A stretch of 32,143 nucleotides of DNA. Source: Acidobacteriota bacterium (GTDB lineage Bacteria > Acidobacteriota > UBA4820 > DSQY01). Position 1 is the first letter of the stretch, and each line of letters starts with the position of its first letter. Below are positions 3,146 to 23,253 of this stretch, one piece after another. The translations under genes and the position numbers were made by a program. The notes beneath the pieces are model-generated. The model did not search any database, had not been told where the DNA came from, and saw nothing but the letters and a program-made list of their open reading frames with translations. The stretch is from the NCBI GenBank assembly GCA_021833665.1, contig JAKBES010000012.1, positions 1-32,143 of the forward strand. Reading direction: 5' to 3'.

Positions 3146-3161
3146 CTTGACGCCCGTCAAG
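3146..3161. promoter_or_regulatory. palindrome, candidate ArsR operator with TTGACG -35-like element
   Basis: CTTGACG-CC-CGTCAAG is a perfect inverted repeat with a 2-base centre. It contains TTGACG, a fair -35 hexamer, about 75 bases before the arsR start. No convincing -10 hexamer is seen 16-18 bases downstream. ArsR-family dimers bind inverted repeats that overlap their own promoter, so an operator is plausible but unproven. Confidence 0.4.
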
Positions 3162-3196
3162 GCGCGGCCTCTTCAGACGCCCCATGATGGGAGTGC

Positions 3197-3218
3197 AGGC
3201 GCGAGGGAGCGCCTTTTT
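3197..3218 (+). terminator. intrinsic terminator or attenuator just before arsR
   Basis: Stem AGGCGC/GCGCCT with a GAGGGA loop is followed by an uninterrupted T run (3214-3218). It lies 16 bases before the arsR start at 3235. It either ends the bax1 transcript or, if the promoter is near 3146, is a transcription attenuator in the arsR leader. It also argues against the upstream in-frame ATG at 3184. Confidence 0.55.
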
Positions 3219-3231
3219 CAAGGGCGGGGTA

Positions 3232-3251
3232 CATATGAATATGGACATATG
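3232..3251. promoter_or_regulatory. CATATG-N8-CATATG element over the arsR start
   Basis: Two copies of the palindrome CATATG are separated by 8 bases, with a third ATATG between them, overlapping the arsR start codons. Sites containing ATATGAA are common in operators of the SmtB/ArsR family. This could be a second operator, or a coincidence of ATG-rich start sequence. Confidence 0.3.
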
Positions 3252-3582
3252 GCCACGGGACGCATGCGGCGCGGCGGGGTACCAGAGCCTGTCCCGGCTC
3301 TTCGGCGACCTGTCCCACCCCTTGAGGCTGGCCCTCGTGCGGCACCTGCTCGCGACGGATGAGGAGTGCGTGTGCAGCCTATCGCGCGGATGCCGGGTCG
3401 ACCAGCCCACCCTCTCCCGCCACCTAAGGATTCTCAAAGACCACGGCGTTGTTTCGGACCGCCGGGAGGGCGCAAGAGTTTTTTACCGGGTCATTGACCC
3501 CCGCGTGGCCCCCGTTCTAGACTCCCTGGGAGTTCTGGACATGAGCCGGAGAAGCACACGATTTACCGAGGAGGAACCATGA
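3235..3582 (+). CDS. ArsR/SmtB-family metal-sensing repressor
   Basis: This is a 115-residue winged-helix repressor. The HTH region reads VDQPTLSRHLRILKDHGVV (55-73), followed by the wing around REGARVFYRV. In the preceding helix EECVCSL carries Cys45 and Cys47, the CxC arrangement that ArsR proteins use for As(III)/Sb(III). The third ArsR cysteine position is Ser50, but Cys53 lies nearby. Cys11 is another possible ligand. I chose ATG 3235, preceded by GGGCGGGG, over in-frame ATGs at 3184 and 3241; the longer form would translate a terminator hairpin. Its stop overlaps the tolC start as ATGA. As first gene of the run it is the likely regulator of the efflux genes that follow. The inducer (As, Sb, Cd or other) cannot be fixed from sequence. 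Confidence 0.9.
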   Translation: MNMDIWPRDACGAAGYQSLSRLFGDLSHPLRLALVRHLLATDEECVCSLSRGCRVDQPTLSRHLRILKDHGVVSDRREGARVFYRVIDPRVAPVLDSLGVLDMSRRSTRFTEEEP

Positions 3583-4919
3583 GGAGAATCTGTCGGTTGG
3601 CTACAGGCGTGGCCCTGCTGGCCACGCTGGTGGTGGCGCCCGCCGCCCGGGCCGCGGAGCCACTGAGCCTGGCGCAGGCCGAACAGAAGGCCATGGCCGC
3701 GAACCCGAGCCTCCAAGCGGCGAAGCTGGAAGCGGTGGCGTCCAAGGCACGCACGGGCGAGACCTTCGGCCGCCATTTCGGTGAGCTGGACCTGGTTGGT
3801 AGTTACAACCACTTCGAGCAGAACCGGATCGTCGTGCCCATGGCGGAGGAGCTCTTCGCCATCCCCGCTCTGGGCATGAGCCAGCTCCCGTGGGACCGTA
3901 ACCAGGTCCACTACGGCCTCACCTGGCAAGTTCCCCTCCTGGCGGCCGGCGGCCTCCATGAGGGCGACCGCATCGCGCGGCTCTCCCAGAGCGCCACCGA
4001 GCACCTGGCCCTCTTCACCAGGGACCAGATCCTCTACAACGTCCGGGCCTCCTACCGCAATGCCCTCATCGTCCGCCACGCCCTCGAAGCGGGGCAGGCC
4101 TATCAGAAGGCGCTGGAGAAGGACGAGGCCGATGCCCAGCTCAGGGTGAAGATCGGCGCCATGGCCCCCGTGGACGCGGCCAAGGTGACCTACGCCCTGA
4201 GAGGGGCCGAAGCCCAGGTGGCCGAGTTCTCGGCCCAGTCGCAAACGGCCCAGGCCTATCTCGCGGCCTTGCTGGGGGAAGAACCTCCCGCCGGCGGGTT
4301 CGAGCTGAGCGACATCCCCGGGGAGCCTCCGGCGCCCGCCGCCTCCGCCGAGGACAACACGAAAGCGGCCCTCGCGGGCCGGGGTGACCTCATGGCCACG
4401 CGCGAGGGCACGGCCATCGTGGAGCACAAGAAGCACCTGGCCCTGGAGGCCTTCTCGCCCCAGCTCGTTTTGCAAGGGACGTACCTTCGCAACGACGCGC
4501 CCTCCCTCAAGGATCCGATCTACACCCGGGAATGGGCCCTCATGATGAAGATTCCCCTCTTCACCGGCCTGAGCCGGATCTACGCGGTTCAGGAGGCGGA
4601 CGCCAACCTGCTCGCGGCGCGGCAGCGGGAGAAGGCCAAAGAGCTGGAAATCGCCACGCAGGTCACGGACGCCGAGGGGCGGCTGGACTCGGCCAAGGCC
4701 CTCTATCAAGCGGGCCAGGCCCAGCGCGGCCTCGGCCAGGAGGTGGCCCGCGTGGAGCACCTCAAACTCGAGCAAGGGGCCGGCAAAATGGAAGATTACC
4801 TGGCCGCGAGGGGCCAGGAGCTTGCGGGTGAAACATCCTACTGGCGCGGGCTTTACGCGTACCAAGGCGCCGTGGACTACTTGGCCTTCGTGACCGCGCG
4901 GGGAGGAGATCATGAATAA
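3579..4919 (+). CDS. TolC-family outer-membrane efflux channel
   Basis: This is a 446-residue outer-membrane component of a tripartite pump. A signal peptide (residues 1 to about 26, ending APAARAAE) is followed by two outer-membrane-efflux-protein repeats starting at LSLAQAEQKAMAANPSL, with long helical segments rich in Ala, Gln and Glu typical of the periplasmic tunnel. It forms the exit duct for the adaptor and pump encoded next. It starts at ATG 3579 after GAGGAGG, overlaps arsR by 4 bases and the adaptor gene by 8, so translation is likely coupled. Family assignment is secure; substrate is unknown. Confidence 0.93.
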   Translation: MRRICRLATGVALLATLVVAPAARAAEPLSLAQAEQKAMAANPSLQAAKLEAVASKARTGETFGRHFGELDLVGSYNHFEQNRIVVPMAEELFAIPALGMSQLPWDRNQVHYGLTWQVPLLAAGGLHEGDRIARLSQSATEHLALFTRDQILYNVRASYRNALIVRHALEAGQAYQKALEKDEADAQLRVKIGAMAPVDAAKVTYALRGAEAQVAEFSAQSQTAQAYLAALLGEEPPAGGFELSDIPGEPPAPAASAEDNTKAALAGRGDLMATREGTAIVEHKKHLALEAFSPQLVLQGTYLRNDAPSLKDPIYTREWALMMKIPLFTGLSRIYAVQEADANLLAARQREKAKELEIATQVTDAEGRLDSAKALYQAGQAQRGLGQEVARVEHLKLEQGAGKMEDYLAARGQELAGETSYWRGLYAYQGAVDYLAFVTARGGDHE

Positions 4920-6024
4920 GAAAGCCCTTGCCATTCTCATCGTCGTGGTGGTGGTCATCGCCGGCGCGGCCGTGATCATTCACAAGAAGCGTGCCCTGGC
5001 CCATCTCGCCCCGCCTGAGAACCCTCCCGTGCCCGTAGCCACGGCCACGGTGAAGGACGGCTCCGTGGGAAGCACGGTGGACACCGTAGCCCTCGTCGTC
5101 TCGGAAACCGCGGCGACGGTCTCGGCGCAAGTGCCCGGATCGGTCCTGGAGGTCCGCTTCCACGAGGGCGACACGGTGAAGAAGGGCGAAATCATGGCCC
5201 GCATTGATCCCAGCGTGCTGGACGATGCCGTGCAGGCGGCGAGTGCGCGCATTTCCGCCGCGAAGGAAGACCTGGCCAAGCAGCAAGCCATCTACGACCG
5301 CGACAAGGTCCTCTTCGACAATCAGGCCATCGCCAAGCAAGCCCTCGACATCAGCGGTGCCCAGCTCGCCGCCGTGAAAGCCGCCGAAGTGGGGGCCGAG
5401 AAGGCGCTCGCCAGCACGCGCACGTACCGCGCCTACGCCAACGTGCCCGCTCCTTACTCGGGTGTCGTGACGGCGCGCCTCGTGGAGCCCGGCGACCTGG
5501 CCGCGCCGGGAAAACCTCTCTACACCCTTCAGGTCCCCGGATCCGTGAAGCTCATCTCCAAGCTCTCCCAGGAGACTCTCGCCCAGCTCAAGCCGGGTGA
5601 CACGGTGACCCTTGACGCCGCGGGCCAGACCCTGGCCGCCAAGACGACGCGCCTCTATCCGGCGCTGGACGCCGCGCACTTGGGCACGGTGGAAACGGAC
5701 CTGCCCGCGCCCCCCTTCGGCCTGCAACCCGGCGCCACGGTGACGGCCCGCTATGCCGCCACGCCCTCCTCGGGCCTCGTGGTTCCCGCGGCGGCACTGT
5801 TGCAGGGGCTTTACGAAACTCTGGTGGTCCGCGTGAAGGACGGCAAGGCCGATCCCGTGCCCGTATCCGTCATCAGCGAAAGCGGCACTCAGGCCACCGT
5901 CCGCGGCGCGCTGGCGCCCGGCGACGTGTTGGCCACGGGCCTGCCCAGCGAACTCATGGCCCTCACCGCGGGCACACCGGTGGCCGCGCAGGCGCCGGCG
6001 GGCGCCGCTGAAACGGGGAGGTAG
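4912..6024 (+). CDS. RND efflux periplasmic adaptor (HlyD/AcrA-type)
   Basis: This 370-residue membrane-fusion protein links the RND pump to TolC. An N-terminal hydrophobic segment (about residues 4-23) anchors it in the inner membrane; no lipobox is present. The biotinyl-lipoyl-like halves appear as VSAQVPGSVLEVRFHEGD and later VPAPYSGVVTARLVEPGD, flanking a helical hairpin (about 100-160). A beta-barrel domain follows. The start ATG 4912 overlaps the tolC stop, and the pump gene begins 2 bases after this stop. No histidine- or methionine-rich metal-binding tail is seen, so cation specificity cannot be read from it. Confidence 0.92.
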   Translation: MNKKALAILIVVVVVIAGAAVIIHKKRALAHLAPPENPPVPVATATVKDGSVGSTVDTVALVVSETAATVSAQVPGSVLEVRFHEGDTVKKGEIMARIDPSVLDDAVQAASARISAAKEDLAKQQAIYDRDKVLFDNQAIAKQALDISGAQLAAVKAAEVGAEKALASTRTYRAYANVPAPYSGVVTARLVEPGDLAAPGKPLYTLQVPGSVKLISKLSQETLAQLKPGDTVTLDAAGQTLAAKTTRLYPALDAAHLGTVETDLPAPPFGLQPGATVTARYAATPSSGLVVPAAALLQGLYETLVVRVKDGKADPVPVSVISESGTQATVRGALAPGDVLATGLPSELMALTAGTPVAAQAPAGAAETGR

Positions 6025-6026
6025 CC

Positions 6027-9000
6027 ATGCGCCTCGTGGAGAGCTACGTCAAGAAGCCCCACCTGCTCCTCTCCGTCGTGCTCCTCCTGGCGGTGGTGGG
6101 CATCGTGGGCTTCTTCAAACTCCCGGTGAACCTCTTCCCCGACAGCGAACGGCCGCAGATCGCCGTGGTCACCGTGTGGCCAGGGGCCTCCGCCGACGAC
6201 GTGAACGGGGACGTGAGCCGCGTCATCGAGAAGGAGCTCAAGACCATTGAGCTGGTGCGGCGCGTGACCTCCACCTCCAACGACGAGGTCTCGGTGGTGA
6301 TGGCCGAGTTCCAGTACAAAAAAGGGCTCGATTCGGCGGCCACGGACGTCTCCAACTCCCTCAACAAGATCCGCCCCCTGCTGCCGCCGGACATCCGGCC
6401 CTACCAGGTCTATAAGGTTTCCTCCGCCACGCCCGCGGTGCTGACCCTCTCGCTGACGCCCAGGGAGGGCTCGCACCTGGACCTCTCCATGATCCGCCAG
6501 CTCGCGGACAACCCCATCAAGGAGGCGCTTCTGCGCCTTCCCGACGTGGCCAACGTGGAGGTCTTCGGGGCCTACCAGCCCGTCATACGCGTGACCCTCG
6601 ATCCCAACAAACTTCAGGCCTATCACCTGAGCCCGGGACAGGTCGTGCAAGCCTTGAACGCCTGGAACCGGAACACGCCTGAGGGGCTCCTCGTCACGGA
6701 CCAGAGCCACATCCTCCTCAAGAACGAGGGGGAGTTTAAACGGTCCGAAGAGGTGGGCGGCGTGGTGGTGAGCGCCGGGGCCGGCCCGCCCGTGTATCTG
6801 CGCGACGTGGCCACGGTGGAGCGTAGCATCCAGGAGCGCCTGTCCGCCTTCCATGGCAACGGCAAGAGCGCCATCGGGATCAACATCCAGCGGGCCTTGT
6901 CTGGCTATGCGCTGCCCACCATCGCCTCGGTGACGGCCAAGCTGCCCGCGCTCGAACGGCAGTACCCGGGCATTCACTTCGAGATCGCCGACACCCAGGG
7001 CGAGCTGATCCACACGAGCGTCTCCAACATGGTGGACGCCCTGCGCGACGCCATCATCATGACCGTCATCGTCATTTTCCTCTTCTTGGCCGACGTGCGA
7101 GGCATGATCCTGGCGGGCATCTCCATCCCCTTCACCTACCTCATCACCTTCGCCTTCATGTGGCTCTTCGGCTTCGAGTTCGACCTCGTGACCCTCACGG
7201 GGGTCATCCTCGGGGTCGGCATGCTCCTGGACGACGCCATCGTCGTCCTGGAGAACATCGAACGGCACTACCACAAGCTCGGCCAGGATTTGAACGAGGC
7301 CACCATCGGCGGCACGCAGGAGGTGATGCTCGCCATCCTCTCGGGCACGTATGCCACGGTGGTGGTGCTCCTGCCCATCATTTTCATCGGCGGGTTCGTC
7401 CAGACGGTCCTGCGGCCCCTGAGCCTGACCCTTTCCATCGCCCTCATGGCCTCCTACTTGGTCTCGGTCACCATCCTGCCCATCCTGGCGCCCTTCATTC
7501 TCAAGCTGGGCGGGCGCGTGGAGCGGTGGAAGTGGGAGCTGAAGCTCGACCACATCGTGACGGGCAAGATCCTCCACGCCATCCAGGAGTTCTTCGTTTC
7601 AGCCGTGGATTTCGCCCTGGGCCACAAGCTCCTCTTCATCCTTCCGGCCATGATGATGCTCGTGCTCACGGGCCGCGTCCTCATGCCCCTCATCGGGCGC
7701 GACCTCATGCCCCCCATGGACACGGGCATCTTTCGCGTGACCTTCGAGGCGTACCCCAACACGTCGCTCAAGGATACGGAGGCGCTGCTCTCCACCGTGG
7801 AAGGCGTGATCAGAAAACAGCCGGGCGTCACCATGACCTCCTCCACCCTCGGCTCGGAGCCAGGCATTCTCTCCTTCGGCTCGGGCCGCAACCCCCAGCA
7901 GGCCTTCGTCACGGTGCATCTGGTGAGCCGCTTCCAGCGCAAACAGACCATGTGGCAGGTCGAAAAGTCCGTGGAGGACCAGCTCCTCAAGGTCCCCGGC
8001 CTGCGCTTTCCCGCCGCTTTCGACTACGGCGCCACGCCGCTTTCCACCATCCGCTCCACCGTGGATCTCATGATCTCCGGGCCCGATCCCAAGGTCCTGG
8101 CCCAGCTTCAGCAGGAGGTGACGAAGCGGCTCAAAACCGTCGGCGGCCTCACGGCGGTGGCGCCCACGTGGACGCTGGACCGGCTGGAATACCGCTATCT
8201 TCCCGATGCGGACCGCCTCGCCATCTACGGCACCGACGCGGCCACCGTGGCGGCTCAGGTGAGCGCCCAGGTGAAGGGTTTCCCCGCCACCCTCTTCCGC
8301 GTGCCCGGCCAGGACTCCTTCGCCGTGTGGGTGCAGGCTCAGGCCTCCCGGCGCGAGAATCCTATGGACCTGGCCACCCTTCCCATCCTCACCCCCAAGG
8401 GGACCGTGCCCCTCTCGGCCCTTGGCCGCGTGGAGCGGGCCTTCGTTCCCACGCTTCACACAAGGCAGAACTTGCAAGAGACCGTGGACGTGCTCGGCTA
8501 CCGGTCCACCACGGCCGTCACCCACATCAACGACAACGTCACCGCCGCCCTCAAGGGCCTTACGATCCCCGTGGGGTACACGATCCAGGACGAGGGCGAA
8601 CGCAAGACCATGGACGAAGCCTTTTCGTCCCTCATGGCCGCCCTGGTGCTCGGCCTCATCCTCCTCTACTTCTCGCTGATACCCGCCTTCAAGTCGTTCA
8701 TCCACCCGCTCACCATCATGGTGGCCATCCCCCTCGGCATCATCGGCGCGGCATGGGCTATGCTCATAACGGGCAAGCACTCGTGCATGCCCTCCTTCAT
8801 GGGGATGATCCTGCTCGCCGGCATCGTGGTGAAGAACTCCATCCTGCTCATCGATTTCATCCTGGAGGCTCGGGCCAAGGGTGAGAGCCGCCACGATGCC
8901 CTCGTGGGTTCCGTGCGCGTGAGAACCCGCCCCATCCTCATGACCGCCGTGGGAACCTCCGTGGGCATGCTCCCCATCGCCTTGCAGTGGGCCATCGGCC

Positions 9001-9164
9001 TGGAGCGCCTGAGCCCGCTGGCCGTGGTGGCCATCGGCGGCCTCATGGTGTCCACGTTCCTGACGCTGATCTATGTTCCCGTGTTCTACGAAGTGTTCGA
9101 TACGCTGCAGACCAAGGTGGCGGGACTGTTTGGAAAACGTGAGGAAGTGAGGAGTGAAGAGTGA
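6027..9164 (+). CDS. RND-family efflux permease (AcrB/HAE-like)
   Basis: This is the proton-driven inner-membrane pump of the tripartite system, 1045 residues, full length for the superfamily. TM1 is at about 11-30 and a large periplasmic porter loop follows to about residue 337. TM4 carries the paired aspartates Asp402-Asp403 in GMLLDDAIVVLENIERH, which relay protons. A second loop and TM7-12 follow, with MILLAGIVVKNSILLIDF near the C-terminus. The sequence is closer to acriflavine/hydrophobic-efflux pumps than to CusA/CzcA, so metal transport is suggested mainly by arsR upstream. The last residues, EEVRSEE, are encoded by an intergenic GAGGAGTGAAGAG repeat, so the native end may have been somewhat different. 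Confidence 0.94.
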   Translation: MRLVESYVKKPHLLLSVVLLLAVVGIVGFFKLPVNLFPDSERPQIAVVTVWPGASADDVNGDVSRVIEKELKTIELVRRVTSTSNDEVSVVMAEFQYKKGLDSAATDVSNSLNKIRPLLPPDIRPYQVYKVSSATPAVLTLSLTPREGSHLDLSMIRQLADNPIKEALLRLPDVANVEVFGAYQPVIRVTLDPNKLQAYHLSPGQVVQALNAWNRNTPEGLLVTDQSHILLKNEGEFKRSEEVGGVVVSAGAGPPVYLRDVATVERSIQERLSAFHGNGKSAIGINIQRALSGYALPTIASVTAKLPALERQYPGIHFEIADTQGELIHTSVSNMVDALRDAIIMTVIVIFLFLADVRGMILAGISIPFTYLITFAFMWLFGFEFDLVTLTGVILGVGMLLDDAIVVLENIERHYHKLGQDLNEATIGGTQEVMLAILSGTYATVVVLLPIIFIGGFVQTVLRPLSLTLSIALMASYLVSVTILPILAPFILKLGGRVERWKWELKLDHIVTGKILHAIQEFFVSAVDFALGHKLLFILPAMMMLVLTGRVLMPLIGRDLMPPMDTGIFRVTFEAYPNTSLKDTEALLSTVEGVIRKQPGVTMTSSTLGSEPGILSFGSGRNPQQAFVTVHLVSRFQRKQTMWQVEKSVEDQLLKVPGLRFPAAFDYGATPLSTIRSTVDLMISGPDPKVLAQLQQEVTKRLKTVGGLTAVAPTWTLDRLEYRYLPDADRLAIYGTDAATVAAQVSAQVKGFPATLFRVPGQDSFAVWVQAQASRRENPMDLATLPILTPKGTVPLSALGRVERAFVPTLHTRQNLQETVDVLGYRSTTAVTHINDNVTAALKGLTIPVGYTIQDEGERKTMDEAFSSLMAALVLGLILLYFSLIPAFKSFIHPLTIMVAIPLGIIGAAWAMLITGKHSCMPSFMGMILLAGIVVKNSILLIDFILEARAKGESRHDALVGSVRVRTRPILMTAVGTSVGMLPIALQWAIGLERLSPLAVVAIGGLMVSTFLTLIYVPVFYEVFDTLQTKVAGLFGKREEVRSEE

Positions 9165-9222
9165 AGAAGGAAGCGCGTGAAGTCGGGTTTGATTGGCTCC
9201 CCGCTTCCTGCTTCCTGCTTCC
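9139..9222. repeat. purine repeat with complementary pyrimidine arm
   Basis: GAGGAAGTGAGGAGTGAAGA units (9139-9173) overlap the end of the pump gene. They are followed at 9202-9222 by CTTCCTG tandem units. AGGAAGCG (9168-9175) and CGCTTCCT (9202-9209) are perfectly complementary, so the element can fold as a hairpin between the pump gene and the next gene. Confidence 0.6.
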
Positions 9223-9260
9223 GCAACAGTAACGGCTCATAGCCGAGAAAGAGGACGACA

Positions 9261-9635
9261 ATGGACATGAACGCGCCGCCCACGGCCGAACAGGTTCTGG
9301 GCATGATGCGAACCAAGATGGGGCCTACCATGCCCGAGTGGCCCGAATCGCTGGCCAAGCTGGCCCCCGACCTGCTCGTCGCCACGGGCATGACCTCGGC
9401 CCAGAGCGTGGGGCGAGAGGAGAGCACGATACCGGCCAAGTACCGCCATCTCATGGGTGTGTCCGCGGCCCTGGCCCGGGGCCACATGAACTGTGCCTGC
9501 GCTCAAGCCCATATGGCGCGAGCCGCGGGGGCTACGCGCGACGAGATCCTCGACGCCGTGCGCATCACGCGCCACCTCGCCGCGTCGGGCGTGCTGGACG
9601 TCTCCGTAGATCTGCTGCGGGATCTGGCGGGGTAA
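9261..9635 (+). CDS. carboxymuconolactone decarboxylase (AhpD-like) family protein
   Basis: This 124-residue protein has the CMD/AhpD fold signature: YRHLMGVSAALARGHMNCACAQAH followed by AGATRDEILDAVRI. AhpD proteins are thiol reductants that use a CxxC-x3-H site; here the spacing is Cys78-Ala-Cys80-x3-His84, a CxC variant. Enzyme activity is therefore uncertain: it could be a redox protein or a thiol-based metal binder. It starts at ATG 9261 (a second ATG at 9267 is possible). It sits within the efflux run, 96 bases after the pump. The real decarboxylase role in aromatic degradation is unlikely in this context. Confidence 0.85.
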   Translation: MDMNAPPTAEQVLGMMRTKMGPTMPEWPESLAKLAPDLLVATGMTSAQSVGREESTIPAKYRHLMGVSAALARGHMNCACAQAHMARAAGATRDEILDAVRITRHLAASGVLDVSVDLLRDLAG

Positions 9636-9646
9636 GTAGACAGTGA

Positions 9647-9710
9647 GGAGCGGGGAGCAAGAGGCTGCGGCCGTTGTCTTTCGGCTCCCTGCTTCCCGCT
9701 CCCCCTTTTT
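9647..9710 (+). terminator. repeat-derived hairpin with T5 in front of fmdE
   Basis: A left arm (9647-9665, starting GGAGCGGGGAGC) pairs with a right arm (9684-9702, ending CCCGCTCC) at 15 of 19 positions, plus two G-U pairs. CCCC and TTTTT (9706-9710) follow, then the fmdE ribosome binding site. The shape is that of an intrinsic terminator or attenuator inside the operon. It is also a member of the intergenic GGGAGC-type repeat family. Confidence 0.45.
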
Positions 9711-9729
9711 AGACGAGGAGAAGCCTACC

Positions 9730-10341
9730 ATGACTGAGCACAAGCACCATTATTCTCCGCCGCAATGGGCTTTCGACTTTCACGGACACGTCTGCCCCTT
9801 CATGCCCCTAGGCTACCGGATGGGCATGCTCGCCCTGGAGAAGCTCGGGGTGGCCCACGAGAAGGACCACACGCTCCACGTCGCATGCGAGCTGGGGGAG
9901 GGCCACCCCCAGACCTGCCTGATGGACGGCATCCAGATCGCGACGGGTGCCACCTTCGGCAAGACCCTCATGGAGAAAGCCTACTGGGGTAAACTGGCCG
10001 CCACCTTCTGGTATCCCGGCAAAACACCCGTCCGCTTTGCTCTGCGGGCGCCCTTCCTCGACCAGTTCGGGGGCTTCGAGTTCTTCGCCTACAGAAAGAA
10101 GGGAATCGAACCCTCCCAGATCCCGGTGGAGGTCACGAATCAGGTAGTATCCTGGACGCTGAACCAGCCCGACGACGCGGTCTACGCCATCTCCGAACGA
10201 CCGGAGTTCAAGTACACGCCCCCCAAGGGCTCTTTCGCGAAGTTCCTCTGCTCCACGTGCGGCGAGTACGTCTTCGAGCGCTACGTGCGAATGAAGGACG
10301 GCAAACCATACTGCATTCCTTGCTCCGGGTACAAGGGGTAG
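9730..10341 (+). CDS. FmdE-family protein with C-terminal zinc ribbon
   Basis: This 203-residue protein resembles FmdE (formylmethanofuran dehydrogenase subunit E family). The N-terminal domain has FHGHVCPFMPLGYRMG with His18, His20 and Cys22, then Cys53 and CLMDGIQIATGATFGK with Cys63 and Asp66, the usual conserved metal-ligand set. A C-terminal zinc ribbon has Cys174/Cys177 and Cys195/Cys198. No methanofuran genes are nearby, so a methanogenesis-type role is unlikely; a metal-handling or redox role within the efflux operon is my inference. I chose ATG 9730, preceded by GACGAGGAG, over an upstream GTG at 9643 that would translate the hairpin repeat. Confidence 0.87.
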   Translation: MTEHKHHYSPPQWAFDFHGHVCPFMPLGYRMGMLALEKLGVAHEKDHTLHVACELGEGHPQTCLMDGIQIATGATFGKTLMEKAYWGKLAATFWYPGKTPVRFALRAPFLDQFGGFEFFAYRKKGIEPSQIPVEVTNQVVSWTLNQPDDAVYAISERPEFKYTPPKGSFAKFLCSTCGEYVFERYVRMKDGKPYCIPCSGYKG

Positions 10342-10367
10342 ACCAGCGGACTTACCAGGCGCTGGTC
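10341..10367 (+). other. 8-bp hairpin at the fmdE stop
   Basis: GACCAGCG (10341-10348) and CGCTGGTC (10360-10367) are exact complements around an 11-base loop, beginning on the last base of the fmdE stop codon and ending just before the next ribosome binding site (GGGAGG). No T-tract follows, so it is more likely an mRNA stability or processing element than a terminator. Confidence 0.4.
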
Positions 10368-10381
10368 TCGGGAGGCTTCGG

Positions 10382-11641
10382 ATGAACGGAATCTGGCCAT
10401 TTGCTCCCCCCGACGCATTCAAGATCGTGCTGATCCTCTTTCTCTCCTTCCTGCTCGGACTCGAGCACGAGGAGCACCGGCCGCAGAAGGGCTACGCTTT
10501 CGGAGGAGTCCGGACCTTCCCGCAACTTGGTCTCTTCGGATACATCCTGGCGACGTTGGCCGATCCCTCCATTTTCTTGGTGGCTATCGGCTTGGTCGTC
10601 GCCGGGGTGTTTCTGACGGTCTCCTACATCCACAAGCTGAAGATAGACCCCGGGGCGGGCATCACCACGGAGATTTCAGGCCTCGGGACGGTGTTGCTGG
10701 GGGCGCTCGTTCAGCGCGACCGCCTCTGGCTCGCTGCAGCCCTCGTGGTCGTCGCCCTTCTCCTCCTGGAGCTCAAGACCGGCCTTGAGAGCATGGCCCG
10801 GCGCGTCGACCCGGCCGAGATCATCACCTTTACCAAATTCCTTCTTCTCTGTGCCGTGATCCTCCCGATCGTGCCGAACCAGCCTTTCACCCCCTTCGCC
10901 ATCAACCCCTTCAAGACCTGGCTCGTGGTGGTGGCGGTGAGCGCCATCTCCTACGTGAGCTATGTCTTGCAGAGACTTACCAAAGGCAAGGGCGGCATCC
11001 TCCTTTCCGCCCTTTTGGGGGGCGCGTACTCCTCCACGGTAACCACGGTCGTGCTGGCCAAGCGCGCGGCCAAGGAGGAAAGGCCACACCTCTTCGCGGG
11101 CGCTACGCTGCTGGCTTCCGGAGTCTTTTACCTGCGCCTCATCCTCTTGCTGGCCTTTTTCAGCCTCCCCCTGACGCGCCTTCTGGCGCCGGGATTTCTC
11201 ATCCTCGGCGTGTCCGCAACGGTGGCGGGGTGGCTCTGGTCGCGCCTGCCCGACGTTCACTCGCAGGAGATCGAACGGGAGTGGACCTCCAGTAACCCCT
11301 TGGAGCTGCGCGCGGCCTTCACCTTCGCGCTCATCTTCGTGGCCATGCTGGTGGCGACGCACCTCACCGTGACCTACCTCGGCGCGGGGGGCGTCTATAC
11401 CCTCGGAGCGCTGATGGGACTCACGGACATCACTCCCTATGTCATGGGATTGGCTCACGGACTCAACACCCCCACCGCGCTGACCGTGGCGGCTGGGGGC
11501 ATCATCGTATCGGCCGCCAGCAACAACCTGGTCAAGGGAGGCTACGCGTACTTCTTCTCCGACCGAAAGACGGGTAGGCAGAGCCTCGCCCTCCTCCTGG
11601 TCCTGACCTTGGCAAGCCTGGCGCCCCTGTTCTTCTTGTGA
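10382..11641 (+). CDS. MgtC/SapB-DUF4010 family membrane protein
   Basis: This 419-residue inner-membrane protein has about 12 hydrophobic segments. The N-terminal part (residues 1 to about 125) matches the MgtC/SapB family through FLLGLEHEEH and GGVRTFPQLGLFGYI. The rest matches DUF4010, with GKGGILLSALLGGAYSSTVTTVVLAKRA and the C-terminal GIIVSAASNNLVKGGYAYFF. MgtC relatives affect magnesium and phosphate homeostasis; the DUF4010 fusion proteins have no established transport substrate. The start is ATG 10382 after GGGAGGCTTCG. Its place among metal efflux genes suggests ion transport, which is inference only. Confidence 0.88.
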   Translation: MNGIWPFAPPDAFKIVLILFLSFLLGLEHEEHRPQKGYAFGGVRTFPQLGLFGYILATLADPSIFLVAIGLVVAGVFLTVSYIHKLKIDPGAGITTEISGLGTVLLGALVQRDRLWLAAALVVVALLLLELKTGLESMARRVDPAEIITFTKFLLLCAVILPIVPNQPFTPFAINPFKTWLVVVAVSAISYVSYVLQRLTKGKGGILLSALLGGAYSSTVTTVVLAKRAAKEERPHLFAGATLLASGVFYLRLILLLAFFSLPLTRLLAPGFLILGVSATVAGWLWSRLPDVHSQEIEREWTSSNPLELRAAFTFALIFVAMLVATHLTVTYLGAGGVYTLGALMGLTDITPYVMGLAHGLNTPTALTVAAGGIIVSAASNNLVKGGYAYFFSDRKTGRQSLALLLVLTLASLAPLFFL

Positions 11642-11782
11642 GGGACTCCGCCCGTGGGCATTCGCAGATCAATGGACTTACCCATCGTGGCTTTGGGGGG
11701 ACGCACGGATCAGCCCCCGCTGGGTCTGTTACACGCACCGGCCTCTGAGGGCAACCCCCCTCGGCAATACAGGGATGCAACG
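11642..11782 (+). other. non-coding spacer with a GAGGG/CCCTC hairpin
   Basis: This 141-base gap lies before the decayed permease. CTCTGAGGG, a CAA spacer and CCCCCCTCGG can form a short GC hairpin near 11743-11764. I compared the spacer by eye with the fluoride, NiCo and manganese riboswitch consensus cores and saw no match. An in-frame extension of the permease from 11654 exists but does not look like a transporter N-terminus. Confidence 0.3.
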
Positions 11783-12306
11783 ATGAGCGTCTCATTCTTG
11801 ATCATCGCCTTCGTCACCATTCTGGTGATCTCGATCGTCTTCTCCATATTCGGCAAGGGGGGCGGGTCGCTCTATACGCCCGTATTGGTCATGCTGGGAA
11901 TGGCGCTGCAGCCGGCCATTTCTACCGTTTCTGTCTGGTCTTCCTGCCGGGGACCATGGCCGGTTCCTTCTTGGGGGCCGTGCTCTCCAGCCTCATCGGC
12001 GTGGGAGGCGGACGGATCATCTTCCCCTTCCTGGTGCTGTACATGAAGTACGGGGCGCAGAGGGCGGCGGGGGCCAACTCGCTCATCGTGACAGTCAGCT
12101 CACTCGTGGGAACCGTTGGCCACTTTGCACTGGGCCATGTGGATTACCGGTTTCTCGCGGGCGCGATGCTGGCTTGCATCATTGGCGCCGCTGCCGGTTC
12201 GCATGTCACGGTAAAGGCGAGCCCGGGGTTCTTGAAGGTGGCCTTCGCCTGCATCATGTGGTGCTTCGCGACCCCAATCGCCCTGAAGCTCATGGGCATC
12301 CTCTAG
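11783..12306 (+). pseudogene. decayed TauE/SafE (TSUP) permease, internal deletion and frameshift
   Basis: Two pieces of one TSUP-family anion permease lie in different frames. The first (from ATG 11783) has a TM segment and the glycine motif FGKGGGSLYTP. The second, read in another frame from about 11930 to the TAG at 12304-12306, has FLPGTMAGSFLGA and the second glycine motif IGVGGGRIIFPFLVLYM, then further TM segments. In intact family members these motifs are usually well over 100 residues apart; here only about 55 codons separate them, so a block of roughly 60-80 codons is missing and the frame is lost near 11920-11936. TSUP proteins move sulfite, thiosulfate or organosulfonates. A short separate protein from an internal ATG at 11956 is possible. 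An assembly error cannot be excluded. Confidence 0.75.
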
Positions 12307-12318
12307 GAGTGACCGGTC

Positions 12319-13242
12319 ATGGGCCATAGCCACAACCACGAGATCCCCGAGAACGGCTCCATGGACCTGAGGCTCTGGGCGAGCGCGGCCCTCAACGGGG
12401 CCATCACGCTGACGGAATTCTTCGGCGGCCTCTTTTCGGGCAGCCTTGCGCTGCTTTCGGACGCGGCCCACAACCTGAGCGATGTGGCAGCCGTTGTGCT
12501 GGCCCTCTGGGCCCGGCGCTTCGGCCGCCGCCCGCCCACCGCCCGCCACACCTACGGCTTCAAGCGGGCGGAGGTGCTCGCGGCGCTGGCCAATGCGGCG
12601 GTCCTCATCGCCGTGACCGTGCTCATCGCGAGGGAAGCTTTCGTGCGCTTGCTCCATCCCGAGCCGGTCCAGCAGGGGCTCATGCTCGCGGTGGCGCTCG
12701 TGGCACTCTTTGCCAACGTGGGGTCGGTCTTCCTGCTGAAGCACCACGAGAAGGACGACCTCAACGTGCGCAGCGCCTTCCTCCACATGGCCCAGGACGC
12801 CCTCGCCTCCCTCGCCGTGGTGATCGCCGCCCTCCTGGCCCACACGGGTGTTGGGCCCTACGTGGATCCGGCGGCGGCGCTCCTGGTGGGCCTGGCGGTC
12901 TTGCGCAGCGCCCTGTCGCTCGTCTGGGAGACGGTCTCCACGCTCATGGAGGGTGTGCCCCAGGACGTGGATTTGGAGGCGGTCGTGGCGGGCGTGAGCC
13001 GCGCCTTTCCCGCCGCGCGGCTCCACCACGTTCACCTTTGGCAGAACGGCCCAGGCCAGCGTCTGCTCACCGCCCACGTGACGCTCGAAAGCAACATGGA
13101 CGGCGCGGCCATCGAAGCGCTCTTCGATCAGATCAAGGACCTGCTTCACGAAGAGTGGGAGGTCACCCACGCCACGCTGGAGCCCGAAGTGGCCGGGTGC
13201 GGGGAGACAGGCCTGCTCGGCCAGTGGGAGGACCACGCATGA
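12319..13242 (+). CDS. cation diffusion facilitator, CzcD/ZitB-type Zn/Co exporter
   Basis: This 307-residue inner-membrane antiporter would export Zn2+, and possibly Co2+ or Cd2+, in exchange for protons. The N-terminus is His-rich (MGHSHNHE). TM2 contains SDAAHNLSD with His51 and Asp55, and TM5 contains LHMAQDALAS with His156 and Asp160; this HxxxD/HxxxD pair is the transport site of zinc CDF proteins. The cytoplasmic C-terminal domain (about 210-290) includes HHVHLW and HVTLE, which fit the regulatory zinc-binding ferredoxin-like fold. It starts at ATG 12319, 12 bases after the decayed permease. The ATGA at 13239-13242 ends the gene. Confidence 0.93.
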   Translation: MGHSHNHEIPENGSMDLRLWASAALNGAITLTEFFGGLFSGSLALLSDAAHNLSDVAAVVLALWARRFGRRPPTARHTYGFKRAEVLAALANAAVLIAVTVLIAREAFVRLLHPEPVQQGLMLAVALVALFANVGSVFLLKHHEKDDLNVRSAFLHMAQDALASLAVVIAALLAHTGVGPYVDPAAALLVGLAVLRSALSLVWETVSTLMEGVPQDVDLEAVVAGVSRAFPAARLHHVHLWQNGPGQRLLTAHVTLESNMDGAAIEALFDQIKDLLHEEWEVTHATLEPEVAGCGETGLLGQWEDHA

Positions 13243-13290
13243 GAGGGCGAATCCGCCTCGGACTCCAAGGGCCTTTCACAGGGAGACGCG

Positions 13291-13350
13291 GAGGAAGGGA
13301 GAAGAAAGGCGGCGTGCATGAGAGCCATCCTCCCCTCCTCTCCTCCTCAC
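13291..13350. repeat. purine/pyrimidine paired repeat before the porin
   Basis: GAGGAAGGGAGAAGAAAGG (13291 onward) faces CCTCCCCTCCTCTCCTCCTC (about 13329-13348), which is largely complementary. It is a weaker member of the intergenic family seen at 9647, 18759 and 23191, and it makes translation of this stretch as porin N-terminus unlikely. Confidence 0.45.
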
Positions 13351-13385
13351 TATTCACGCTTGCTCCGTCGCGGGCACGGCGGGCA

Positions 13386-14480
13386 TTGAGGCCGGCTTGG
13401 CGCGGTTGGGCGGTGATGCTCTTCTGGCTGCCGCTGGCGGCCTTGGCGGATGGGGCGCCGGCTCCCTCGCCCTACCTTCCCGTGCTCAGTTCCTACGTTC
13501 AGATCCGCTACACCGATCCCAGCCAAGGCGACGACACGTGGGCCATCCGCAGGCTGAAACTCATGCTCGACGGAGGGCCATCGGAGGGAATCCACTACCA
13601 CCTCCAGTTCATCTACAAAACGAACCTCCAAAGCTCCACCGACGACCAGATCTACCTCCAGGACGCCTACGTCGTGATTCCCGCGGCCAAGGCTCTGGTG
13701 TTTAAGCTCGGCCAGTTCGTGCCCCCCTTCGGCCCCGAACGCTTCGAGCCCGACTGGAAACTTGACCTCGTGGACCGCACCGACGTGACCAATCGCATGG
13801 TGGTGAACGGCAACCTGGGCAAGAGCTTCGCGCGCGACCGGGGCGTGGAGGGCGACTGGACGAAGGGGGGCTTCTCATTGTCCGTCGGCTTCTTCCAGGG
13901 CGAGGGGGCCAACATGAACCCGATGGGAAACGGTCCCCTGGGCGTCGCTCGCCTGAGCTACGGCGGAAAAGGAGGGGCGGACGGATCCGCCTGGCATTGG
14001 CGGGCGGGCCTGGCCGCCTCGGACCGGCACGACAGCGACTTGAACCTCTCCGCAGAGTTCCCGGGCGTCAGTCCCAAGCTCACGAGCCACTTCGCCGGGC
14101 GTGACAGCCGCTTCAACGTCTTCGCTGAAGCGAGCTTCGGAAAGGTTCGGGGGCAGGTCGAGGTGTTCAGAACGTGGCTTTCGCCGTCGAGGGGCAGCGA
14201 AATCTCCGCCCACGGCGCTTACGGCCAGGTGGCCTACCTGCCGGTCCGGCAGATCATCCTCGCCCTGCGCTACGAGGCCTTCACGCCGGACGTCCACGAA
14301 CCCGACGTGGCCAGCCAGGATCTCTGGACCGCCGGCGTCACGGTGGACGTACCCAAGACCTCCCTGCGTCTCGCCTGCGACTACAGCCATCCCACCACCA
14401 CCTGGCCCAGGACCCACGGCGACGTGGTCCGAGTCCAGCTTCAATGGATCTTCCCGTCGTGGCACGTGAGCGGCGAATGA
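13386..14480 (+). CDS. OprO/OprP-family (phosphate-selective type) porin
   Basis: This outer-membrane beta-barrel protein of about 364 residues belongs to the OprO/OprP group. Diagnostic stretches are YVQIRYTD, WAIRRLKLMLDG, YLQDAYVVI, FKLGQFVPPFGPERF and an alternating aromatic pattern of strands to the end (VRVQLQWIF). The signal peptide WRGWAVMLFWLPLAALADG is clear, but the start codon is not: TTG 13386 gives a positively charged n-region, GTG 13413 and ATG 13416 are shorter options, and ATG 13239 overlaps the CDF stop but would put about 50 odd, repeat-encoded residues in front. OprO and OprP pass phosphate or polyphosphate, and related anions such as arsenate can enter the same way. The stop overlaps the chromate transporter start. 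Confidence 0.82.
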   Translation: MRPAWRGWAVMLFWLPLAALADGAPAPSPYLPVLSSYVQIRYTDPSQGDDTWAIRRLKLMLDGGPSEGIHYHLQFIYKTNLQSSTDDQIYLQDAYVVIPAAKALVFKLGQFVPPFGPERFEPDWKLDLVDRTDVTNRMVVNGNLGKSFARDRGVEGDWTKGGFSLSVGFFQGEGANMNPMGNGPLGVARLSYGGKGGADGSAWHWRAGLAASDRHDSDLNLSAEFPGVSPKLTSHFAGRDSRFNVFAEASFGKVRGQVEVFRTWLSPSRGSEISAHGAYGQVAYLPVRQIILALRYEAFTPDVHEPDVASQDLWTAGVTVDVPKTSLRLACDYSHPTTTWPRTHGDVVRVQLQWIFPSWHVSGE

Positions 14481-15721
14481 GCAGGCAGGAAGTGAAAGCC
14501 GGCAGCTCGCCCAAGCCCCGGATGGATGCCTCCGCCGGGTGGTCCGGACGCCCTCTTCCAGGACTTCTTGCGCAATTCCTGTGGATCGGCGCCATCGGTT
14601 TCGGGGGCGGCATGGCCAACATCGCCCTCATGGAGCGCGAGCTGGTGCGCAAGCGCCGTGTCATCTCCCATGAGGAGTTTCTGCACGGCGTGGGCTTCGG
14701 CCAGCTCTTGGGCCCCTTCGCCGTGAACACGGCCTTCTTCGTGGGGTGCAGGCTTTTCGGACCGTTGGGGGGGCTCCTCTGTGCGACGGCCTTTATGGCG
14801 CCCTCGGTTCTCATCGTCATCGTCCTCTCCTGGCTCTACTTCGCCTACCACAGCATTCCGTCCCTGCAGGCGGCGGTGAGGGGCGTCGGCCCGGTCGTCA
14901 TCGCCCTCATCCTGGCCGCCGCCTGGTCCCTGGGGCGCAAGGCCCTCCGGCGCTGGCCCGCCGCCGTGGTGGCCCTGCTGGCCCTGGCGCTCTCGCTGCT
15001 CAAGATCAACGCCGTCTACGTGCTGGCGGCGGCTGGCGTGCTGGGTCTCGTGCTGGGCCGCTCCCGGTTCGGGGGCTCCGGCTCCTCCAAGAGCGCGGGC
15101 CGTAGGGAGCGGGCGGCCCCCGGTGTGGCCGGAGTGGCCTTCTCCCCCAAGCTCGCGCAGCTCCCCGCCGCCGCGGCGGCTCCGGCGGCCGGAGGGGGCG
15201 TGGGGCTGGCGGCTCTGAGCTGGACCTTCCTCAAGATGGGTCTCGTCTTCTTCGGGGGCGGCTTCGTCCTGATCCCCATCCTCCACCAGAAGCTCGTAAC
15301 CCAGCTCCACTGGCTCGACAACCGCGAATTCCTAGACGGCGTGGCCATCAGCAACCTGACGCCCGGCCCCATCGCCGTGCTCGCCACCTTCGCCGGGTAC
15401 CACCTGCACGGCGTCGCGGGCGCCCTCGCCGCCACCGTGGCGCTCTTCGCCCCCGCCATGGCCCTCATGACGGTGCTCACGATGGGCTACGGACGCTTCA
15501 AGGGCAACGAGCGCTTCGAGGACTTCCTCGCGGGCGTTTCACCCGCCGTGGCGGGCCTCATTGTGGGAGCGGCCTTCCTCCTCGGCCCCTCGGTTCTCCA
15601 CGGCCTTCCGGGCTGGGCCCTCATGGCGCTGGCCCTCGTGCTGCTCCTGAGGTTGAAGGTGCACCCCGTCTTCCCGCTGGCGGCGGGGGCGCTTCTGGGC
15701 GCCGCCGGGTGGATCACCTGA
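14477..15721 (+). CDS. chrA: chromate transporter ChrA, two-domain form
   Basis: This 414-residue inner-membrane protein has two homologous CHR domains, the long form of the family. The first half has IGAIGFGGGMANIALMER and GFGQLLGPFAVNTAFFVG; the second has MGLVFFGGGFVLIPIL, LDGVAISNLTPGPIAVLATFAGY and a matching run of TM segments. A poorly conserved Ser/Arg/Ala-rich linker (about 195-250) joins them. ChrA proteins expel chromate, and some may move related oxyanions. The ATG at 14477 overlaps the porin stop as ATGA, so the two are translationally coupled. It is the last gene of the arsR-headed run. The substrate is known for the family, not shown here. Confidence 0.93.
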   Translation: MSRQEVKAGSSPKPRMDASAGWSGRPLPGLLAQFLWIGAIGFGGGMANIALMERELVRKRRVISHEEFLHGVGFGQLLGPFAVNTAFFVGCRLFGPLGGLLCATAFMAPSVLIVIVLSWLYFAYHSIPSLQAAVRGVGPVVIALILAAAWSLGRKALRRWPAAVVALLALALSLLKINAVYVLAAAGVLGLVLGRSRFGGSGSSKSAGRRERAAPGVAGVAFSPKLAQLPAAAAAPAAGGGVGLAALSWTFLKMGLVFFGGGFVLIPILHQKLVTQLHWLDNREFLDGVAISNLTPGPIAVLATFAGYHLHGVAGALAATVALFAPAMALMTVLTMGYGRFKGNERFEDFLAGVSPAVAGLIVGAAFLLGPSVLHGLPGWALMALALVLLLRLKVHPVFPLAAGALLGAAGWIT

Positions 15722-15748
15722 GCCGGCGGGGGTGAATGGAGGTTGATC

Positions 15749-16225
15749 GTGGCGAGAATGAAGAGAGTCGTCATGGCCGTGCTTTTCGTCGTGAACTGCC
15801 CGGTCTTGGCGCAAGAGACCTTCGTGCTGGTGGGGCCCGCCGTGGGCAACGTGCGGAACCAGAACCGGCACCTATACGGGTCTCTGGAGATCAGGCACGT
15901 CTTTCAATCTTGGGGAAAGCTCTCGCTGGGGTTCGGCGGGGCCCTTGAGGTGAGTTCGATCGAGAACTACGCGGGGCTTAACCTGACTCTCCGGTACACC
16001 CTTTTCGACCCGTGGAGCCTCTCCCTGACCTCGGATCCGGGCTGTTTCTCGGACCGTTACTTCGACCTCGGGAGCCACCTGGAATTCTGGTCGGGCCTTG
16101 AAGCGTGCTATCAGTTGAGAAGGGGCTATGGCCTGGCCTTCGGGCTCTTTCATTACTCCAACGGCGGGGTGGCTACCCACAATCCCGGCATGGAATCGGT
16201 CCGCGTGGCCTTCGTGATACCCTAA
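15749..16225 (+). CDS. PagL-like lipid A 3-O-deacylase
   Basis: This 158-residue outer-membrane beta-barrel protein has a signal peptide (MKRVVMAVLFVVNCPVLAQ). The C-terminal motif FHYSNGGVATHNPGMESVRV holds His135, Ser137 and Glu149; the His-x-Ser spacing and the 14-residue His-to-Glu distance equal those of the PagL catalytic triad. PagL removes the 3-O acyl chain of lipid A and softens or remodels LPS. I prefer GTG 15749 because GGAGG (15738-15742) is 6 bases upstream; TTG 15743 and ATG 15758 are alternatives. It follows chrA by 27 bases and may be read through from that operon. Confidence 0.87.
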   Translation: MARMKRVVMAVLFVVNCPVLAQETFVLVGPAVGNVRNQNRHLYGSLEIRHVFQSWGKLSLGFGGALEVSSIENYAGLNLTLRYTLFDPWSLSLTSDPGCFSDRYFDLGSHLEFWSGLEACYQLRRGYGLAFGLFHYSNGGVATHNPGMESVRVAFVIP

Positions 16226-16259
16226 TGGCAAAGCTGGGCAGGGTGAAGGAGGGGCCGAA

Positions 16260-17765: not shown

Positions 17766-18387
17766 GGCCTTGAGCGGCGTAGTAGGTGCTCATGATGAGG
17801 AGCTGGGCGCTGGGGTAGGGCTTGCGAAACCGGTCGAGGGCCAGGGACGAGTCGGAGGCCACGAAGAGGAGGGCTCCCATGGCGGCCAGCAGGGTGCCGG
17901 TTCCGCCCACCTGTTCCCAGCGGGAGAGGGCGCGCCAGGCCATGGCCAGGATCACGGCCATGTAAATGAGAACGGGTCCCTTCATGGGGCCGAGGTGCGG
18001 CCAGAGGATGGGGAGGAGAAGGGCTCCGTAGAGCACGAGCGGCAGCGTCGTCCAAGGTGACAGACCCAAGCGGGTGCCGGAGGAAAAGGCGGCGATGTAG
18101 CACAAGTGGGCGGCCAGGAAGCTGGCCAGCCCCGGCAAGAAGCGGTCCCCGGGAAGCATGAGAAAGACGTCTCCCGCCAGGGAGAAGGCGAGACCCACCA
18201 GGATGGCGGCCCGGTACACGGAACCGCCGGGTGCGGGGCCGAGGGCGGCCGCCAGAAGAATCAGCCCAGTTGTCATGGGTTTGCAGAGGTAAACCACCCA
18301 GCGGGGACCGGCATACTCGGCGCGAATGTGGAGCACCGCCGAGACCAGGGCGAGGGCGTACAGCAGGGTGGTCCCGTGGCTGCTCAT
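17746..18387 (-). CDS. YhhN/TMEM86-family lysoplasmalogenase
   Basis: This 213-residue integral membrane protein with about eight hydrophobic segments fits the YhhN family, whose characterised members hydrolyse the vinyl-ether bond of lysoplasmalogens. Recognisable pieces are YLCKPMTTGLILL near the N-terminus, LVGLAFSLAGDVFLMLP with its conserved GD, AHLCYIAAF, GALLFVASDSSLALDRF and STYYAAQGLI at the end. It starts at ATG 18387. It lies alone on the - strand between a terminator (18402-18419) and the convergent lipase, so it probably has its own promoter, which I could not identify. Confidence 0.87.
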   Translation of the reverse strand: MSSHGTTLLYALALVSAVLHIRAEYAGPRWVVYLCKPMTTGLILLAAALGPAPGGSVYRAAILVGLAFSLAGDVFLMLPGDRFLPGLASFLAAHLCYIAAFSSGTRLGLSPWTTLPLVLYGALLLPILWPHLGPMKGPVLIYMAVILAMAWRALSRWEQVGGTGTLLAAMGALLFVASDSSLALDRFRKPYPSAQLLIMSTYYAAQGLIALSV

Positions 18388-18430: not shown

Positions 18431-18730
18431 TTACTCCGCGTGCAAGGCGGCATCCACGGGGAGGACCCACGCGTGCGTGGTGGGACAGAATCGCTTGTCG
18501 GCGATGCATCCCTGGATGCACTCCATGAGGCCGGGGATCACTTCGTCGGGCACCACGGCGATGATGACCATGGAGGCGCCCGGATGGACGCGGTCGCCCA
18601 TCTTGGACCCCGTTCGTCCCGCGCCGAAGACCTCAGGGATCACCGTGTAGCCCGTTACCCCATTTTCCCTCAGCGTGTTCATGCAGTGCGGCTCGTACTC
18701 GCTGTCCGTGACCAGAAAGAGCATCTTCAT
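18431..18730 (-). CDS. PII-like protein linked to RND efflux (PII-NG type)
   Basis: This 99-residue protein has the beta-alpha-beta pattern of the PII superfamily: MKMLFLVTD, a first helix, then YTVIPEVFGAGRTGSKMGDRVHPGA in the T-loop position and SMVIIAVVPDEVIPGLMECI. The tyrosine-bearing T-loop of GlnB/GlnK is absent. A divergent PII group (PII-NG) is known from genes beside heavy-metal RND pumps, and this gene is 104 bases downstream of such a pump. His15, Cys16, His49, Cys71, Cys75, Cys82 and His86 are potential metal ligands. It starts at ATG 18730 after GGAGCGGG. Its role, perhaps sensing metal or nucleotide and modulating the pump, is inferred. Confidence 0.75.
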   Translation of the reverse strand: MKMLFLVTDSEYEPHCMNTLRENGVTGYTVIPEVFGAGRTGSKMGDRVHPGASMVIIAVVPDEVIPGLMECIQGCIADKRFCPTTHAWVLPVDAALHAE

Positions 18731-18758
18731 TTTCCCGCTCCCAAAAGACGCTTACAGT

Positions 18759-18824: not shown

Positions 18825-18834
18825 CCTGTGAAAT

Positions 18835-22076
<3,242 letters not shown>

Positions 22077-22080
<4 letters not shown>

Positions 22081-23162: not shown

Positions 23163-23190
23163 CCCTCGACTCCCAAAGATCTGGCCGAAT

Positions 23191-23248: not shown

Positions 23249-23253
23249 GTTCA

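Follow-up and report, generated by a model that had tools for sequence, protein, structure and literature searches.

An arsR gene at the head of a long run of exporter genes, with no arsenic permease or reductase gene among them, raises the question of what such a run is for. This arrangement occurs on contig JAKBES010000012.1 of an Acidobacteriota bacterium (GenBank assembly GCA_021833665.1), which is 32,143 nucleotides long, constitutes the whole of contig C69 in a 3.8-Mb draft genome (labelled G000), and is referred to here in its entirety as the window; its kin are metagenome-assembled genomes (MAGs) of Acidobacteria. Starting at position 3146, the + strand carries arsR, OEP, MFP, RND, CMD, FmdE, MgtC-DUF4010, TSUP (broken), CDF, porin and ChrA genes, followed by PagL-like and LCAT-like genes, with identities assigned by Pfam matches over cut-off, NCBIfam cut-offs and nearest PDB entries. 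All genes named by a first-pass annotation of the sequence are present, the porin match being weak (3e-7), and the OEP, HlyD and ACR_tran matches of a tripartite RND pump are consecutive, as that annotation had stated. On balance, we favour the view that the cluster is an ArsR-controlled accessory cassette of arsenic-resistance islands, whose transcription is probably divided into two or three blocks.

Arsenic-resistance genes around the cluster

Neither acr3 or arsB nor arsC was found in the window, as already reported in the first-pass annotation, and the canonical ars-operon permease and reductase are therefore both missing from it. The non-arsenic role read into this absence is not supported by comparison with related genomes. 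In G003 (contig C36), arsR-acr3-arsR-arsD-arsA-arsC and an arsM-like methyltransferase gene lie directly upstream of the same cluster, and in G006 (C22) the genes directly upstream are arsR-acr3-arsC, so that the cluster is physically linked to ars genes in both. Further downstream of the cluster, G003 also encodes an arsR-thioredoxin-CcdA-thioredoxin-ArsP-like permease series. The window's own genome carries three complete acr3 genes (C183, C245 and C84), two of them beside arsC, and an acr3 fragment (C216); its LMWPc (ArsC) matches are found only on other contigs (C245, C84 and C62). On C245, arsR-acr3-arsC and an arsM-like gene are followed by arsR-Trx-CcdA-Trx, a second, short FmdE gene and ArsP_1. 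Because ars genes adjoin the cluster in relatives and acr3 and arsC occur elsewhere in the same genome, their absence from the window reflects the location of the contig and cluster rather than a role unrelated to arsenic.

The gene-order search in related genomes that had been proposed earlier showed the cluster itself to be conserved. The order arsR-OEP-MFP-RND-CMD-FmdE-(DUF4010)-(TSUP)-CDF-porin-(ChrA)-PagL recurs, complete or on split contigs, in four MAGs of the same family, where DUF4010, TSUP and ChrA occupy variable slots. Such conservation, together with an operator-like palindrome at the head, indicates that the cluster is more than a chance assembly. Protein identities are mosaic: products from arsR to CMD are 88-98% identical to those of G002, the DUF4010, ChrA and PagL products are 89-98% identical to those of G001, and FmdE is 91% identical to that of G006 and 76% to that of G002.

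The molybdoenzyme genes that adjoin the cluster in G003 (L021, 14936-19101) encode an oxidoreductase of the tetrathionate/arsenate reductase clade with a TAT signal, an Fe-S subunit and a chaperone. An assignment as arsenate respiratory reductase was rejected, since the ArrA match was weak and the tetrathionate-reductase-like match better, both being below cut-off.

The repressor and its putative operator

The CxC motif attributed earlier to the ArsR product was found as ECVC (Cys45/Cys47), accompanied by a third cysteine (Cys53), and all three are conserved in an alignment of relatives. The cluster is thus headed, like an ars operon, by an ArsR/SmtB repressor (PF01022, NF033788) with a metalloid-type cysteine site. 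The N-terminal cysteine ligands that accompany CxC in CadC-type sensors were not found as a conserved feature, Cys11 being present in G000 and G002 and absent in G003. BigR was the second-ranked NCBIfam match, below cut-off.

Upstream of arsR lies a palindrome that reads CTTGACG(CC/GG)CGTCAAG in three other loci (L021, L022 and L129) and TTGACGCCCGTCAA in a fourth (L062). Wherever the head of the cluster is covered in a relative, the palindrome precedes arsR, while the surrounding intergenic DNA has diverged. Only one site was found in each of G000, G003 and G006, and two in G002, with none for a reversed-pattern control; the next-best match inside the window has 3 mismatches. The overlap of the palindrome with TTGACG would fit repression by occlusion. 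As for the leader hairpin that follows, the window copy folds no better than shuffled sequences (z -0.7), while the L021 copy reaches z -3.8. A CATATG-N8-CATATG element at 3232 was also considered as an operator and rejected, as it is not intact in L021.

Junctions and likely transcription blocks

The run had been described as one 12.5-kb operon joined mostly by start/stop overlaps. The junctions from arsR to ChrA measure, in order, -4, -8, +2, +96, +94, +40, +141, +12, -4 and -4 nt; four of the ten do overlap, only at the ends of the run, and the remainder are gaps of up to 141 nt. The run is continuous to ChrA, where it was thought to end (15721), and extends beyond, the PagL-like gene following after 21 nt and the LCAT-like gene after a further 34 nt. 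Hairpins in the RND-CMD and CMD-FmdE gaps fold well beyond shuffled controls (z -3.1 and z -3.4, the second ending in U5), and in relatives both keep their positions, with altered sequence. The gaps of 94-141 nt, of which two contain strong hairpins, make separate blocks within the run likely, and together with the mosaic ancestry they argue against a single seamless transcript. A promoter/terminator consensus scan of the window gave results at chance level.

The purine arms of the intergenic hairpins are supplied by a 7-nt repeat, (GAGGAGT/GAAGAGT)n, with about 80 sites in the genome. Copies occur in the window at 9149-9164 and 26419-26441 and upstream of arsR in L022, and one mosaic breakpoint lies near a copy.

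FmdE and its neighbours

The FmdE product has the two-domain organization of PF02663 proteins, with a metal site made up of an FHGHxC motif and a distal cysteine, and with a C-terminal Cys4 zinc finger. Its metal site (His18/His20/Cys22/Cys63) and finger (Cys174/177/195/198) show no variation among the 34 homologues taken from these loci. We know of structures for PF02663, and of no established role outside methanogens; catalytic fmd/fwd subunits were found neither among the window genes nor among the 25 commonest FmdE-neighbour families. The nearest relative of known structure, 2gvi, combines a thioredoxin-like domain with a zinc finger and forms an intertwined dimer; its zinc is bound by His16, His18, Cys20 and Cys61, the last of which also carries an unknown ligand (Axelrod et al. 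2010, PMC2954224). The same work reported that most genes of the family adjoin metal-ion transporters, and arsenic is not mentioned there.

Neighbours within 8 kb were compared for 22 FmdE loci from 11 other acidobacterial families (~33-72% identity) and for 20 windows of 16 kb drawn at random from eight of the sampled genomes. ArsR was found at 17 of the 22 loci, TSUP at 16, ArsC at 10, ACR3 at 8, CDF and RND at 6 each and ChrA at 3; in the random windows, none of these families appeared except RND, in two. For loci that are not fully independent, Fisher p was ~1e-7 for ArsR, 4e-7 for TSUP, 4e-4 for ArsC and 0.003 for ACR3. At ten loci of other FmdE subfamilies, ArsR, a 40-residue TSUP fragment and an ArsP-like permease were each seen once, and ArsC and ACR3 never. 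Since these searches used queries from arsenic islands, up to three of the closest genes to either side of FmdE were also scanned against all of Pfam. Among the 106 neighbour proteins, TauE led with 17 matches, followed by ArsR (11), CDF (6), ACR3-type SBF, ArsC-type LMWPc and OEP (4 each), and ChrA and porin (2 each); P-type ATPase, mer and cop were absent from the 25 commonest families. Rhodanese, DsbD/CcdA and thioredoxin also occur as FmdE neighbours.

The association extends to plasmids. On a plasmid of Citrobacter amalonaticus Y19, FmdE accompanies TSUP and CDF within an arsenic island; it lies with RND, TSUP, CDF, arsC and an arsenite methyltransferase gene on a Sulfuricella plasmid, and as FmdE-TSUP-CDF on a Halorubrum plasmid; other Enterobacteriaceae plasmids carry FmdE-TSUP with no acr3 nearby. 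The RND subfamily also appears tied to FmdE: in G084, G227, G024 and G275, from two other families, the RND most similar to that of the window is, by far, the one linked to FmdE (56% identity vs 29%; 43-44% vs 30%). Literature searches for FmdE with arsenic returned nothing relevant, and those for TauE, CDF and arsenic resistance returned none, so that the link of FmdE-TSUP-CDF to arsenic islands and its tied RND subfamily appear undescribed in the literature searched.

An FmdE-TSUP pair (L051/L052; FmdE 39% identical) also occurs, flanked by transposases, on about 20 Citrobacter, Klebsiella, Enterobacter and Kosakonia plasmids. Separately, the gene between thioredoxin and ArsP_1 in an arsR-Trx-CcdA-Trx-FmdE-ArsP cassette encodes an FmdE-like protein of one domain (L125, 14179-14751, on G000:C245; also L167), and PF02663 matches lie within the same cassette in L166 and L171. 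On inspection, the genes directly upstream of the arsR-Trx-CcdA-FmdE-ArsP cassette in L167 (G002:C87, 1240-7951) resemble those for molybdenum cofactor and molybdate uptake.

The exporters

The window RND has an Asp-Asp pair in its fourth transmembrane helix (TM4) signature, GMLLDDA, within GMLLDDAIVVLEN. By this motif it is of the HAE (AcrB/MdtB) type rather than the heavy-metal type, whose acidic TM4 signature is absent. It scored 370 bits against the HME model TIGR00914 (cut-off 701) and 413 against the HAE1 model TIGR00915 (cut-off 940); since it falls below all NCBIfam cut-offs, it represents a separate subfamily. The protein called AhpD-like earlier shares only the CMD fold (PF02627) and lacks the redox CxxC...H arrangement of AhpD, the NCACAQAH of the window corresponding to a single cysteine in L021 and L023.

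The TSUP gene is decayed, as had been suspected. Relative to the intact 255-aa copy in L026, it misses two internal segments, one loss shifting the frame and the other falling between short direct repeats. The L020 copy has different deletions and L021 has lost the gene, so that three of the five cluster genomes have a broken TSUP gene or none and still retain FmdE. MgtC-DUF4010 is present in L020 and L026 and absent in L021 and L022; as L026 has both DUF4010 and an intact TSUP, DUF4010 was rejected as a TSUP replacement. The CDF protein matches the general model TIGR01297 and scores 227 bits against the 408 required by the ZitB equivalog NF002923. ChrA has the two CHR stretches of long CHR proteins and exceeds TIGR00937 (222 vs 171.7 bits). 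A link to the Tso/SAO selenoprotein systems was dropped, the NCBIfam matches to TsoR and GSU3128_fam being far below cut-off.

Proposed function and alternatives

In the mechanism that we infer for metal specificity, repression, partnerships and transport substrates, ArsR, whose conserved cysteines most likely detect As(III)/Sb(III), would occupy the single palindrome over the -35-like hexamer and block transcription until metalloid binding frees it. From the first block, TolC-MFP-RND would move arsenicals across both membranes, probably in thiol-bound or organic forms, because acr3 elsewhere handles free arsenite. The CMD protein and FmdE would be expressed by weaker read-through beyond the two hairpins. 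FmdE, which homology suggests is a dimer with a thioredoxin-like fold, an exposed His2Cys2 metal/thiol site and a zinc finger, could bind a soft metalloid or its thiol/sulfur adduct in the cytosol and serve an anion/sulfur-type permease, namely TSUP where intact or conceivably ChrA, whose gene adjoins that of FmdE at certain other loci. CDF would export Zn/Cd, and the porin would let products out. Tentatively, the two-domain FmdE (HGHxCPxMPLG plus zinc finger) could be an unrecognised arsenic-resistance protein of bacteria and haloarchaea, a cytosolic carrier of arsenic-thiol/thioarsenic species to TSUP (or ChrA), and an HAE-type RND subfamily dedicated to this task would complete export.

Several observations weigh against a role in arsenic resistance. 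The window holds no unambiguous arsenic gene, and CxC is found in Cd/Pb sensors as well. CDF does not export arsenic and the name of ChrA refers to chromate, while the decay of TSUP shows that it is dispensable here. The 22 FmdE loci are not phylogenetically independent, six of them coming from one family, and the genomes are drafts, mostly MAGs. Moreover, several loci (L027 and L066 among them) carry FmdE with TSUP and no acr3 or arsC, and the primary link of FmdE may be to TSUP, that is, to sulfur chemistry. Another explanation is a sulfur/thiol stress module, in which the substrates of FmdE and TSUP would be sulfite, thiosulfate or thiol adducts, perhaps thioarsenates, with ArsR as a sulfur-type sensor, and which arsenic islands carry since arsenic and sulfide share habitats. 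TauE as the commonest FmdE neighbour, the rhodanese, DsbD/CcdA and thioredoxin genes, the loci without ars genes and the second-ranked, sub-threshold BigR match all agree with it; we consider it improbable given the metal-type CxC site of ArsR, the enrichment of acr3 and arsC, and the retention of FmdE where TSUP is broken or lost. Even so, with TSUP as its commonest partner, the true ligand of FmdE could be a sulfur species such as thioarsenate.

The first-pass reading, in which a single ArsR would free every exporter and each would serve its own ion (drugs or metals for RND, Zn/Cd/Co for CDF, chromate for ChrA, anions for TSUP and the porin), stands as far as the single ArsR at the head, the one palindrome and the conserved order are concerned. 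The families of the parts and the Zn-type HxxxD motifs of CDF are in its favour as well, yet it seems unlikely in view of the recurrent arsenic-island context, the lack of P-type ATPase, mer and cop among the 25 commonest FmdE-neighbour families and an RND that is not of the heavy-metal type. The same order in four other genomes also makes it doubtful that the cluster arose by recombination of cassettes with transcripts of their own (RND block; FmdE-DUF4010; CDF-porin-ChrA), of which ArsR would control the RND block alone, as do the lack of a second operator copy downstream and the chance-level promoter scan, although the hairpin-bearing gaps of 94-141 nt and the mosaic identities are what such a history would leave. 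An accessory arsenic cassette is favoured further by the recurrence of FmdE, TSUP, CDF, ChrA and porin genes around arsR, acr3 and arsC in other loci.

Comparison with known systems

Canonical ars operons and islands (arsR-acr3-arsC, arsDA, arsM) share with the cluster an ArsR head and, on plasmids, several accessory genes, and they adjoin it in G003 and G006. They differ in that the window cluster has no acr3/arsB, arsC, arsA or arsD and uses a tripartite HAE-type RND as its main pump. The arsenic region of Sulfuricella denitrificans pSCD (NC_022358) is similar in having TolC-MFP-RND (RND 40% identical), TSUP, FmdE and CDF in one + strand run adjoining arsC and an arsenite methyltransferase gene; however, a sigma-70 factor rather than ArsR heads that run, thioredoxin/CcdA/OsmC genes lie between RND and TSUP, and there is no porin or ChrA. 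The window FmdE shares both domains, the His2Cys2 site and the C-terminal zinc finger with 2gvi (Thermoplasma Q9HJ63), and is encoded outside any formylmethanofuran dehydrogenase operon. Finally, the RND resembles MdtB/AcrB pumps in its TM4 DD signature, full-length fold and TolC and MFP partners, but is ArsR-headed and FmdE-linked.

The recurrence of FmdE beside arsR, TSUP, CDF, acr3 and arsC, including on Enterobacteriaceae plasmids, points to a specific, testable function. It also indicates that arsenic islands include, besides ArsB/ACR3, an interchangeable export cassette based on an AcrB-type RND, which is relevant to genome-based prediction of arsenic tolerance and perhaps to cross-resistance.

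Features of the window and flanking genes

Table 1. Position and basis of assignment of features in and around the arsR-headed cluster.
Feature	Position	Strand	Basis
Operator-like palindrome CTTGACGCCCGTCAAG	3146..3161	+	Conservation upstream of arsR; contains TTGACG, possible -35
Leader hairpin GGCGC-GAGGGA-GCGCC, then T tract, operator-arsR interval	3197..3218	+	Sequence kept in L021, L022
arsR, ArsR/SmtB repressor	3235..3582 (alternative start 3184)	+	PF01022 (HTH_5) 1e-10; NF033788 over cut-off
OEP, TolC-like outer membrane channel	3579..4919	+	PF02321 6.9e-20
MFP, periplasmic adaptor (HlyD)	4912..6024	+	TIGR01730 over cut-off
RND permease, HAE-type by motif	6027..9164	+	PF00873 (ACR_tran) 3.9e-203; nearest solved MdtB
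RND-CMD gap, hairpin of dispersed purine/pyrimidine repeats	9165..9260	+	z -3.05; hairpin in L021, L022 too
CMD-fold protein without AhpD CxxC	9261..9635	+	PF02627 2.1e-8; alignment
Terminator-like hairpin and U5, CMD-FmdE interval	9646..9713	+	z -3.44; position kept in L021-L023
FmdE, two-domain with C4 zinc finger	9730..10341	+	PF02663 1.1e-22; PDB 2gvi 2.6e-48
MgtC-DUF4010 membrane protein, variable slot	10382..11641	+	PF13194 8.3e-49
TSUP (TauE/SafE) permease pseudogene	11783..12306	+	PF01925 on C-terminal part
CDF exporter (Cation_efflux)	12319..13242	+	TIGR01297 over cut-off; HxxxD/HxxxD (Zn/Cd-type) motifs
Porin O/P-like beta-barrel, start uncertain	13239..14480	+	PF07396 (Porin_O_P) 3e-7, weak
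ChrA, two-domain chromate transporter family	14477..15721	+	PF02417 1.3e-83; TIGR00937 over cut-off
PagL-like outer membrane protein	15743..16225	+	PF09411 1.1e-9; after ChrA in L020, L021, L026
LCAT-like hydrolase	16260..17765	+	PF02450 9.9e-11; in L020 and L026

Rfam, tRNA and tmRNA scans of the window found nothing. PagL-like and YhhN genes adjoin the RND-FmdE cassette (window 15743-18387) as well as the ArsP cassette (L124, 10324-11648; L171), which suggests exchange at a shared site. A second efflux operon on the - strand (18431-24621) encodes a P-II-like protein, an HAE-type RND, an MFP and an OEP, and its RND is about 27% identical to the first.

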